64,000 nucleotides of DNA from Hyalangium ruber. Its GTDB lineage: Bacteria > Myxococcota > Myxococcia > Myxococcales > Myxococcaceae. The position numbers and the translations under genes are program-made. The notes beneath the pieces were generated by a model. That model did no database searches. It was not told the DNA's origin and saw only the letters and a list, made by a program, of their open reading frames with translations. The stretch covers positions 310,001 to 374,000 of the forward strand of contig NZ_JAXIVS010000003.1 in assembly GCF_034259325.1 (NCBI RefSeq). Direction: 5' to 3'. This document shows positions 56,975-61,048 of this stretch, piece by piece (within the stretch, counting starts at the first letter, position 1; each line of letters starts with the position of its first letter).

Positions 56975-57146
56975 TTAGCCCTCTATACAGCAAGAACTAC
57001 ACGCTTGCCAGAACCTCTATCGTCGGAGGGCTCCTAGACATCCCAAGAGCCCTCTGACATGCCCAATCCAGAGTGCCTAAAAAGCAAGAACTGGAGTTCA
57101 CCAAACTGAGGTTGCTTTCCATCAATGCTGTCTTCTCTGGTTGCTC

Positions 57147-57347
57147 CTAGTGCGTCGTGTAAGCGCCCACTCCTCCAAGTAATCCTGCGCCAATGGCAGC
57201 CCCGACAGGACCTCCAACCATCGAGCCAAGCACGGCTCCAATGACCGCTCCCACTGCTGCTCCTCTTGCGGGTCGACGATGCTGCGGAGGAATGATCTCC
57301 CAAGCCTCATCCCTAATAGCCCTATCGACCTTGTCGTTCTTCTTCAT
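57147..57347 (-). CDS. Glycine-zipper mini-protein
   Basis: A 66-residue protein: a charged first half (MKKNDKVDRAIRDEAWEIIPPQHRRP) followed by a Gly/Ala/Val membrane segment GAVIGAVLGSMVGGPVGAAIGAGLLGGVGAY with regular GxxxG spacing. An excellent GGAGG site nine bases before the ATG decides the start and argues for real expression. Short glycine-zipper peptides insert into membranes and can form pores (holins, bacteriocin-like or toxin peptides) or act as anchors. It lies in the low-GC island between the nuclease gene and the MITE, pointing away from the GTPase operon. Its role is not known. Confidence 0.65.
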   Translation of the reverse strand: MKKNDKVDRAIRDEAWEIIPPQHRRPARGAAVGAVIGAVLGSMVGGPVGAAIGAGLLGGVGAYTTH

Positions 57348-57670
57348 AAGTATGTACCTCCAGTAGGTTGCGATGCCTTCATCAGCAGGTACTGTGCCAA
57401 TGCTCTTCGAGAGCGCGGCAACCAAGCACGTGTGTGAATGCACCTTAAAAAACCCAATCAAATCGAAGACATGCCAGCCAGAGGCCGTGCAGGCGCTGTA
57501 GGCAAATATACTCCTTGATCCCACTCTAACCGATAGCCGCACCATGCTAGAGAATAGCGGGGACAACGAAACCGTTGTCTGGGAGCAATGAGTTCATTGT
57601 CGAGGACCTAGGTGCGCTCGCCTCAAGGTCACGCCACCCCCTACGACAACCTTGCCCCACAGCCGCGTTA
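57348..57670. other. Gene-free stretch with one short hairpin
   Basis: No convincing gene is seen in these 323 bases. They hold a perfect 7-bp inverted repeat (GACAACG-AAAC-CGTTGTC, 57562-57579), which could be an operator or a remnant terminator, and the upstream region of the glycine-zipper gene. The open frames here lack ribosome sites and have low-complexity, Arg/Ser-rich translations. Confidence 0.5.
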
Positions 57671-57878
57671 GAGGGTGTTGAACAGGAGCGAGCAACCAAG
57701 CTTCGTGAGCCTCCACGGGTCGCAGTCGGCACGGCTCGCTGGCCCACTGGTCGGAAATGTCGGGGGTTTGGGCGCTCGATAAGTCCCGACATTCCCGAAC
57801 AGTCACCCGCGTAGGTCGCCCCCGGGGCTAGAGTTGGAGACGCTGCCGCCTACTTCCCTGCTCCTGCTCAACACCCTC
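57671..57878. mobile_element. 208-bp MITE with 19-bp terminal inverted repeats
   Basis: The left end GAGGGTGTTGAACAGGAGC (57671-57689) is the reverse complement of 57860-57878 with one mismatch. Both ends abut the trinucleotide TTA (57668-57670 and 57879-57881), a 3-base target duplication. There is no room for a transposase. The GAGGGTGTTG end and a TNA-type duplication are what I know of IS5-family (IS1031-like) elements, so an IS5-type transposase elsewhere probably moved it. Confidence 0.7.
57756..57793. repeat. Inverted repeat inside the MITE, possible activator site
   Basis: AATGTCGGG (57756-57764) and CCCGACATT (57785-57793) form a perfect 9-bp inverted repeat 20 bases apart. It lies 130-170 bases upstream of the sigma-54 promoter, the usual distance of an enhancer for a bacterial enhancer-binding protein. 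A structural role in the element is the other possibility. Confidence 0.35.
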
Positions 57879-57922
57879 TTAGCCTCTCGCACTCCGGGGT
57901 CGCGATTGCCTAGGGCTTGAAG

Positions 57923-57938
57923 TGGCACGCTCTTTGCC
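57923..57938 (+). promoter_or_regulatory. Sigma-54 (-24/-12) promoter of the GTPase operon
   Basis: TGGCACGCTCTTTGCC has the invariant GG at 57924-57925 and GC at 57936-57937 with exactly ten bases between, and it matches the consensus TGGCAC-N5-TTGC at all ten defined positions. The transcript would start near 57949, about 24 bases before the GTPase ATG, leaving room for the GGGAGG ribosome site at 57961-57966. Confidence 0.8.
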
Positions 57939-57972
57939 ATATCCGCTCAGACTGTGCTACGGGAGGCGCATC

Positions 57973-59922
57973 ATGGCCAAGCGACGTTCGGATGTTGTAG
58001 CAGTATTTGAGGAACGCAAGCAGAGAATCCTAGATCTAGCAAAGACTCTAAAGGGGCTCGCCGCTGAGCGTGAGGACGCTGAGGCAGTGAACGTCCTTAG
58101 CGATTTCGTCGAGCGGTTCCAGCAAAATCGCTTTCTGCTACTCATCGTCGGAGACTTTAAGAGTGGCAAGTCCACGCTAGTTAATGCTCTCGTGGGGCGC
58201 CCCGTTTGCCCAGTCAAGGCCACGCCACGTACAGCTAAAGTAACGCGGCTCACCGCAACCGAAGCAGACGGTGTTGAGCGGGTCGACATTCACTTCATTG
58301 AGGACCGGCCATCCGAGCGTGTACAACTAGGAGAAGTGCCTCTCGATGAACTGGTTGCTGTGGGAGGTAGCCGCTCGAATGATGTACAAATGGTCGATGT
58401 ATTCATCCGGCCAGGGGATACCCTCCTTCGCCATCCGGTTCGGCTTGTGGACACACCGGGGCTTGGATCAAGCAACGAGGAGCATTCCAAGATCACTCGG
58501 GACTACATGCAGCACACAGATGCACTCGTAGTGGTATTCTCCGCATCGAAGCCTTTCTCCGACTCAGAGCGCGATTTTCTTCTCACGTTTCGGCAATTAC
58601 TGGATCGAGCCGTCTTCGTCGTGAATCAGATTGACCGCGTCAGCGATGATGAACGCGATGAAGTGTTAGGTCATATTCGTCATGGATTGAAGGAAGACGT
58701 ACTTGGAGCCGATGCGGCTGACCCCGTACTGCTTCCCGTTGCAAGTCGCCGGGCCTTGGACCTTCTCAAGGAGGGTGCCAACTACGACGATGAAGCCCTC
58801 ATCAAAACGGGACTGCCTGCAATCGTTGATGCCATCGAACATCACCTTGCGCAGGCTCATGCTACGAAGCTCCTCAAGAATATTGCGGAGCAACAACAAC
58901 AAGTAACCGCAGCACTTGTCCATCAAGCGATGCTAGCGACGGAGGGACTCGAAGCGGCTGGTCCTTTGGCACACGGCTTTCGAAGCCGTAAGAAGAAGCT
59001 TTTATCAGAACTTGATCGCATGGCTTCTCGACGAGATTACGCCATGCCTTTGCAGAAGGACCAGCAGAGCCTCCTAGATGCAGTGCATCCCGCAGCGGAA
59101 ACGCTACGTAACGCACTGAACCAGAAAGTGGAGAACTGGATCACGGCCTGTGCCTCGGAGGAGGCGTGCAAGAAAAGTCTTGCAGCTATCTTCGCCAAAG
59201 AACTTACCGGCATGCTTGAAGACCTCGATCACCAACTCGCAACTCAGTATAGGCGGATCGGGACAACTGCTTACAAGAACATACACATCCTGTTTCGAGA
59301 TATGGAGACAGCAACACGTCAAGTCATCACCTCGGATCATGCACAAAGCTCGACGAACGACGATAGCCTTGCACGTGGAGCTGCGGGCCTTTCAAGCTTG
59401 AGCGCGTTCGCCAACAGCATGGGAGGCCCAACGGGTGGCTACGGCATCGTAGCATCTGCGCTTTCACAGGCGCTTGCCCCGTCTGCTGGTTTACAGTTTC
59501 TTTCGATTGCGACCGTAGTTACCACTCTGCTCGCAGGATTTGCCGGACCAGTGGGCTGGGTTGTGGCAGGGATTACTGGATTACTCACTGCCATATTTGG
59601 ATTCTCTCGCTCCTCCTCATGGCGCGAGCGTGTCATTAGCAGCGTCCGCACCAAAGTGGAAGAAGAAGTCATTCCATCACTAAATCAAGCCATGCAACAA
59701 TCCATCCACGCTTTTGCTCAAGGACTTATTACAGAGCTAGACTCTCGCGTGCATACTGTTAGGCAACGTCTTGGCGCAGTAGTGGAGGAAGTCTCGCGAG
59801 AAATAGACAGGGAAGAGAGGCGCCGCAAGGAAGAGATTGCTCGGCTGAAGGCTTTCCGGCAGCGCGTTGAGGCAGTCCAAGAATCTCTCAAGGCATTTAC
59901 ATCTTCGCTACAAGAGTCCTAA
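57973..59922 (+). CDS. Dynamin-like GTPase with membrane hairpin
   Basis: A 649-residue large GTPase. P-loop G60-DFKSGKS-67, the switch Thr region PRTAKVT (84-91), G3 D160-TPG and G4 NQID (218-221) are all present. A long helical middle region follows (about 300-500), then a hydrophobic hairpin at about 506-542 (IATVVTTLLAGFAG ... GWVVAGITGLLTAIFGF) and a C-terminal charged coiled coil ending SSLQES. This is the layout of bacterial dynamin-like proteins that bind and remodel membranes. GGGAGG decides the ATG at 57973. The gene lies behind a sigma-54 promoter and 43 bases before its likely activator gene. Codons are A/T-rich, unlike the host background. Confidence 0.88.
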   Translation: MAKRRSDVVAVFEERKQRILDLAKTLKGLAAEREDAEAVNVLSDFVERFQQNRFLLLIVGDFKSGKSTLVNALVGRPVCPVKATPRTAKVTRLTATEADGVERVDIHFIEDRPSERVQLGEVPLDELVAVGGSRSNDVQMVDVFIRPGDTLLRHPVRLVDTPGLGSSNEEHSKITRDYMQHTDALVVVFSASKPFSDSERDFLLTFRQLLDRAVFVVNQIDRVSDDERDEVLGHIRHGLKEDVLGADAADPVLLPVASRRALDLLKEGANYDDEALIKTGLPAIVDAIEHHLAQAHATKLLKNIAEQQQQVTAALVHQAMLATEGLEAAGPLAHGFRSRKKKLLSELDRMASRRDYAMPLQKDQQSLLDAVHPAAETLRNALNQKVENWITACASEEACKKSLAAIFAKELTGMLEDLDHQLATQYRRIGTTAYKNIHILFRDMETATRQVITSDHAQSSTNDDSLARGAAGLSSLSAFANSMGGPTGGYGIVASALSQALAPSAGLQFLSIATVVTTLLAGFAGPVGWVVAGITGLLTAIFGFSRSSSWRERVISSVRTKVEEEVIPSLNQAMQQSIHAFAQGLITELDSRVHTVRQRLGAVVEEVSREIDREERRRKEEIARLKAFRQRVEAVQESLKAFTSSLQES

Positions 59923-59965: not shown

Positions 59966-61048
59966 ATGAATGCACAGCAGAACCCCATCCCCCGCTACTT
60001 GAAGGGCGAGGATCCACGGACCCATGAACTCTTCCGAGATCTCTGTCGGTATGCTCGGACGCGTGAGCCTATTCTTATTCTTGGCGAGACAGGGACTGGG
60101 AAGGAGATTGTCGCGCAAGAAATACATGCACAAAGTCACCGTCGAGATAAACATTTCCAGCCTGTCAACTGCGCTGGATTAGCTCACGACCTCGCCGGAA
60201 GCGAGCTGTTTGGCCATGAAAAAGGCGCCTTCACTGGAGCAGGCAGAAAACGTCCTGGGCTAATCCGCGAAGCAGATGGTGGCACCTTATTCCTTGACGA
60301 GTTTGGAGACCTCCCTCAATCGGTGCAGGTCATGCTCTTGAGGTTTCTGCAAGACAGTTCTATTCGCGGCACAGGTGCAGACAAAACCGAAACTCTAAAT
60401 GTCCGCATTATTGCTGCCACCAACAGAGATATCGAAGGCGAGGCACAAACTGGCAACTTCAGGCGAGACCTTATCGCTCGATTCCAGAAAATTCTGCGAC
60501 TTGCTCCACTAAGGGAACGCCCCGGCGACATACACTCCCTTGCTCTAGCATTCATTCAAAAGCACGCAGGGCAAGAAGGTATGAATCCTTCGGCTCACTC
60601 ATTAAGCCTTGCTGCTTTAAACCTTCTTGGGTCGCAACGATGGCCTGACAATGTCCGCCAACTTGAACGCGCGATCAAAGACGCACTAATCACAACGTAT
60701 GACCAAGCACCAGCCTGCTTAGATATTCACCATTTCAGCAATCTCCAAGAACATCCTTCCTCAAAGGATTCGGCAGTGGATAGCGCGTCTCATGAGGCAA
60801 CGAATGCCCTCCAGCATCTAGCCGAGAGTATTTTATCAGGGCTTTGCAGCGGGGACCTACAACCTGAGAAACTCCCCTTATTGGCTGATCGATTCTTCGT
60901 GCTGCCACTTGAACATTATTTAGCGCAAGCGTTCCTCAAGCGTTTTAGCGGAAAGAGCGCCGAGGAAATGGCCGACAAGCTATTCACGTACAAGTCAGCT
61001 GAGGCAGTCCGCCGTTTCTTGCGAAAGCCCGCACGTAGCCGCACCTAA
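59966..61048 (+). CDS. Receiver-less sigma-54 activator (enhancer-binding protein)
   Basis: A 360-residue protein that begins almost directly with the AAA+ domain: Walker A GETGTGKE (40-47), the sigma-54 contact loop GAFTGA (87-92), Walker B GGTLFLDE (105-112), sensor I AATNRD and [12 protein letters not shown]. There is no receiver, GAF or other N-terminal input domain, so it should be active when made or be controlled by a partner. The last 110 residues are not a standard Fis domain, but the end ([24 protein letters not shown]) can form a helix-turn-helix. It follows the GTPase gene after 43 bases with an AAGGAG site and is the obvious activator of the sigma-54 promoter in front of the operon. 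Confidence 0.9.

Follow-up and report, generated by a model that had tools for sequence, protein, structure and literature searches.

A MITE with IS5-type ends between predicted tandem enhancer dyads and a predicted sigma-54 promoter

MITEs are known to land near promoters, and divergent sigma-54 promoters around a shared upstream activating sequence (UAS) form the layout of the psp system. Some members of the IS5 family use a three-nucleotide target site. Activators that lack a regulatory domain typically bind paired UAS sites and reach the promoter by looping (PMC7175178, in the part of the paper available to us), and sigma-54 enhancers act at distances of several tens to hundreds of bp, with indels of whole helical turns both predicted and found to be tolerated (PMC4740811, again in the part available). 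In the locus described here, which lies in a 64-kb stretch of Hyalangium ruber DNA (the whole stretch analysed, hereafter the window), a MITE appears to have inserted between the predicted tandem dyads of a sigma-54 activator and the promoter of the operon encoding a dynamin-like GTPase and that activator, and activation by looping probably persists. What is read directly from the sequence is the MITE with its copies and relatives, the conservation of dyads and promoter motifs, and the spacing among them.

The MITE occupies positions 57671–57878 (no strand assigned), with IS5-type ends GAGGGTGTTGAACAGGAGC and, on the other strand, GAGGGTGTTGAGCAGGAGC that form 19-bp terminal inverted repeats alike at 18 of 19 bases, and it is flanked by a target duplication, TTA, read at 57668–57670 on the left and 57879–57881 on the right. 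It is too short to encode a transposase and contains no ORF of 100 aa. The first-pass annotation had described just such an element, 208 bp long with 19-bp ends differing at one base and a TTA duplication, ending 44 bases before the −24 box, and each of these points is present in the sequence, the −24/−12 motif starting at 57923. The inner inverted repeat that it listed is also real, with its length of 9 bp understated: the repeat consists of two 19-nt arms (57746–57764 and 57785–57803) that are 89% complementary.

A search with the whole element in its own genome (10.77 Mb, the sole representative of its genus among the genomes compared) gave 22 matches, mostly to the middle of the MITE. Copies were defined by both ends together with an identical TNA duplication, sought at 13 loci carrying the inner palindrome and at 777 control positions; four of the palindrome loci (the window copy included) have this structure, versus none of the controls. 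The four copies measure 208 bp with TTA (the window), 252 bp with TCA, 359 bp with TGA and 294 bp with TGA, and their alignment reveals common ends and a common middle, two of the four being alike along most of their length, while partial, MITE-like loci with one or two decayed ends (C4:304612, C3:269563, C10:18528 and C4:20279) were left out of the count. The earlier proviso that no other copies with the same ends might exist thus falls away, as three more were found, all with perfect TNA duplications.

An IS5-type transposase between comparable ends, which the first-pass annotation had proposed to look for, is present in a related genus of the same family (G003), whose genome contains five copies of a 1065–1066-bp IS that ends in GAGGCTGTTGAACTGGGCG and GAGGGTGTTGAACAGGGGC; TTA flanks four of them on both sides. 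Of the outer 11 bases of this IS, all match those of the MITE at one end and 10 do so at the other, without identity over the full 19. One copy (L199) carries an open 277-aa transposase with domains DUF4096 and DDE_Tnp_1 that scores 223.4 bits against NF033580, the IS5 model, versus a curated cut-off of 110. The MITE's own genome has six NF033580 matches, and no intact IS5 transposase was found in this assembly, since both of the matches over the cut-off contain an in-frame stop, although a MITE does not need such a helper in its own genome; one of these two, at C32, lies between matching ends GAGGGTGTTGAGCCAGGGC and GAGGGTGTTGATCCGGGG, 1004 bp apart, with flanks TCA and TTA. Judged from its ends, its duplication, the further copies and the existence of an IS5-type IS with such ends, the element is therefore a MITE of an IS5-type transposon, one that an IS5-type transposase with a TNA target would have moved, and belongs to a subgroup that we take to be IS427/IS1031-like. 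A literature search found no report of MITEs in Myxococcus. As a separate observation in G003, 1816 bp lie between IS5-type ends at L197:513–2328, with flanks TTA and TCA and ORFs of 263 and 278 aa that by eye are not transposase-like, possibly cargo moved by MITE ends.

On the plus strand beyond the MITE lie a gene for a dynamin-like GTPase of 649 aa (57973–59922, with ATG at 57973; an alternative GTG start at 57922 would overlap the promoter) and one for a sigma-54 activator (bEBP) of 360 aa (59966–61048), which has a GAFTGA motif and a sigma-54 interaction domain and is without an N-terminal regulatory domain. On the minus strand, a gene for a 66-aa Gly-zipper protein (57147–57347) points the other way. 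Relatives of the GTPase occur in two of 96 family genomes (its own included) and three of 195 phylum genomes, with 43% identity to that of the window in G090 and 47% in G154, and among plasmid records none is full-length (17 matched, none covering 80%). All three loci have the same arrangement: a sigma-54 activator gene stands downstream of the GTPase gene, and upstream of it, in divergent orientation, is the gene for the small, strongly conserved Gly-zipper protein. Searched with its last 100 residues, the activator has matches in three of the 195 phylum genomes, those that also have the GTPase; this C-terminal part matches no Pfam HTH model, and a structure model of the activator from sequence alone (mean pLDDT 36.4) is too poor for use. 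In G154 (L218:12–1444) the activator gene seems cut short, passing into an ORF that by eye looks like an rve-type transposase.

The predicted sigma-54 promoter of the GTPase–activator operon, TGGCACGCTCTTTGCC (57923–57938, plus strand), and the predicted divergent promoter of the Gly-zipper gene, TGGCACAGTACCTGCT (57384–57399, minus strand), both recur in the two orthologous loci, a −24/−12 motif with GG-N10-GC being present in both directions in all three. All 11 scored positions of the GTPase-side motif agree with the consensus; no other site in the window reaches this score, and 13 sites on both strands together score at least 9. Scans of 57350–57980 for sigma-70 promoters and terminators returned none, and Rfam at gathering thresholds gave no match over 57000–58500. 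IHF-like sites with one mismatch number three in the 3036-bp locus (L220), with 1.17 expected, a count equalled in 30 of 200 shuffles.

Just upstream of the MITE are two predicted UAS dyads, located by comparison and pattern search: CAACGAAACCGTTG (57564–57577, plus strand) and, 22 bp from it, CAATGAGTTCATTG (57586–57599, plus strand). These are the only two occurrences of CAAYGN4CRTTG in the 64-kb window, where 0.12 are expected and where none of 100 shuffles produced two; each half of the second dyad has one departure from CAACG/CGTTG. G090 and G154 each have two perfect CAACG-N4-CGTTG dyads, 21 bp apart, upstream of the −24/−12 motif. Across the 195 phylum genomes the tandem pattern is found in three, at one place each, beside the orthologous GTPase–activator operon, and a reversed control pattern is found in two other genomes. 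As dyads, GTPase and activator C-terminal domain are thus restricted to the same three genomes of 195, there is strong comparative evidence that the tandem dyads are the predicted operator, or enhancer, of this activator, and we infer that the activator binds them, hence outside the MITE as the second part of the earlier proviso had it, and that it controls its own operon.

The distance from the dyads to the GTPase-side −24 element is 323 bp in the window, 67 bp in G090 and 51 bp in G154, and to the Gly-zipper-side −24 element it is 164, 44 and 66 bp, respectively. When the MITE and one TTA (211 bp) are subtracted, the GTPase-side gap in the window becomes 112 bp, so that the insertion would have roughly tripled the loop, which is now about five to six times as long as in G090 and G154. 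These two loci, the only ones available for comparison and too diverged for base-by-base alignment of an empty site, have spacers with no room for the MITE. Comparison with them, in which tandem dyads stand 51–67 bp from sigma-54 promoters without any MITE, favours the earlier suggestion that the element separated a (predicted) upstream activating sequence from its promoter, and lends no support to the suggestion that the insertion rewired the operon, as loci free of the MITE have these dyads and promoters too. The longer Gly-zipper-side gap is not explained by the MITE, which implies that the spacer of this lineage grew for other reasons too. A literature search for MITEs in sigma-54 UAS regions found nothing relevant.

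We propose that before the insertion the dyads would have been shared by two divergent sigma-54 promoters, one for the Gly-zipper gene and one for the GTPase–activator operon, and that an IS5-type transposase then moved the MITE into a TNA target between the dyads and the GTPase-side −24/−12 promoter. This would have lengthened the GTPase-side loop only, from 112 to 323 bp. The added 211 bp correspond to 20.1 turns of 10.5 bp, near 20 whole turns, and the bound activator should therefore still face the GTPase-side promoter, so that looping probably survived, most likely with activation persisting at a strength that may be altered; this effect on expression is what we infer from spacing. By chance alone, about one length in five would fall within 1 bp of whole turns, which makes helical phase a weak argument.

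The first-pass annotation had instead placed an enhancer at the inner inverted repeat. On that reading the palindrome, a good dyad at a usable distance (57746–57803, no strand), would be the enhancer and the insertion would have brought sigma-54 control to the operon, which we regard as highly improbable. The repeat is a palindrome of about 56 bp (CTGTTCGGAAATGTCGGG...CCCGACATTTCCGAACAG) with a conserved central asymmetry (GGGGGTTTT...AAAAGTCCC; window:57746–57803, L050–L062, L229–L243) and belongs to a separate repeat family of Myxococcaceae. It stands at 13 places in its own genome (14 pattern places, less two unrelated in sequence, C3:604871 and C10:240767, plus an interrupted copy, C16:73243–73477), at four of which no MITE end was found, so that it is not specific to the MITE. 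A search of named genomes found it also in Myxococcus and Pyxidicoccus: the 102 stretches obtained (80 listed and read, palindromes being counted over all 102) contain 37 palindromes of myxobacterial type, none of them inside MITE ends with TNA duplications. The whole-element search matched 20 of 96 family genomes, in four genera, and the arms covary in some genera (GGGAATG/CATTCCC in G041, GGAAACG/CGTTTCC in G040). In the two orthologous operons the sigma-54 promoter motifs stand without the palindrome, and the dyad that is conserved is another one, located outside the MITE. The inner palindrome is thus, on this distribution, an independent repeat carried by the MITE and probably not an enhancer, and the notion that the insertion brought an enhancer is unsupported; comparisons within its own genome, across the family and among named genomes yielded no evidence of a link between palindrome and activator. 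A role of the palindrome as a terminator was considered and set aside on the terminator scan of 57350–57980, which returned none. A literature search found no description of this palindrome in print. Elsewhere in the genome, the loop of the C16 copy (L273) is interrupted by about 180 bp and an IS5 transposase remnant lies nearby (C16:72612–72803). A record named Comamonas sp. KCTC 72670 (BNCN01 contigs; L065, L072) carries Myxococcus-type palindromes, and that name is probably wrong.

Two further readings accept the position of the MITE and differ on its consequence. The insertion may have broken the GTPase-side loop, silencing or weakening the whole module because the activator gene lies in that operon; the roughly threefold increase over the pre-insertion loop, and five- to sixfold excess over the orthologous loci, speak for this, and under autogenous control of the activator gene both arms would be affected. 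However, the two reading frames, the two promoter motifs and the pair of dyads are all intact, the addition is close to a whole number of turns, and the present distance is to be set against the several tens to hundreds of bp over which sigma-54 enhancers act (PMC4740811, in the part available), and we judge a broken loop unlikely. Alternatively, the tandem dyads might bind some other regulator, such as a repressor of the divergent pair, in which case the position of the MITE would be uninformative on activation. The missing Pfam HTH match in the C-terminal part of the activator and its poor structure model leave space for such a regulator, but the dyads are confined to genomes that have this activator with its C-terminal domain, and their tandem spacing of 21–22 bp, 51–67 bp upstream of promoter motifs where there is no MITE, is the usual UAS layout, so that we consider this reading distinctly improbable. 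We thus favour an insertion between dyads and promoter with looping retained.

The MITE itself is of an ordinary, already known kind, and the useful result is its position, which lies between a predicted bacterial enhancer and the sigma-54 promoter that this enhancer would serve. With two MITE-free loci and the second promoter as an internal control, it becomes directly testable how loop length affects a natural sigma-54 enhancer. Setting the three loci side by side also brings to light a small conserved module, composed of the Gly-zipper protein, the dynamin-like GTPase and the activator, with a testable predicted operator. The GTPase has a Dynamin_N domain and matches to 2j68, 6j72 and LeoA models, and PADLOC places both LeoA (2.4e-27) and LeoBC (4.3e-21) on the GTPase only; its matches to LeoA, BDLP and IniA are weak, and they suggest, as a guess, a function in membrane stress or defence. 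More speculatively, and in our view less likely than not, the module might be an undescribed sigma-54-controlled membrane-stress or anti-phage response in which two divergent promoters share one pair of enhancer dyads and the MITE retunes their ratio. If so, it would be a natural experiment in which the loop is longer on one arm by a near-whole number of helical turns and a transposable element has retuned the ratio of two promoters. A literature search that covered few subscription papers found no pairing of a dynamin with a sigma-54 activator in print.

Compared with described systems, the element resembles IS5-family MITEs in being short and non-coding, with terminal inverted repeats whose first bases are GAG, TNA duplications of 3 bp and a related IS whose transposase passes NF033580, and differs in that the copies here vary from 208 to 359 bp and have at their centre a palindromic repeat that is unrelated. 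The GTPase shares Dynamin_N and model matches with the bacterial dynamin-like proteins BDLP, IniA and LeoA, but scores far below the NCBIfam equivalog cut-offs. Similarly, the activator is like PspF-type activators in its lack of a regulatory domain, its GAFTGA motif and the divergent (predicted) sigma-54 promoters around a shared (predicted) UAS, whereas its score against the PspF equivalog is 203.9 bits versus a cut-off of 443.55 (TIGR02974), the genes next to it encode a dynamin-like GTPase and a Gly-zipper protein, and its gene lies inside the operon under its own predicted control.
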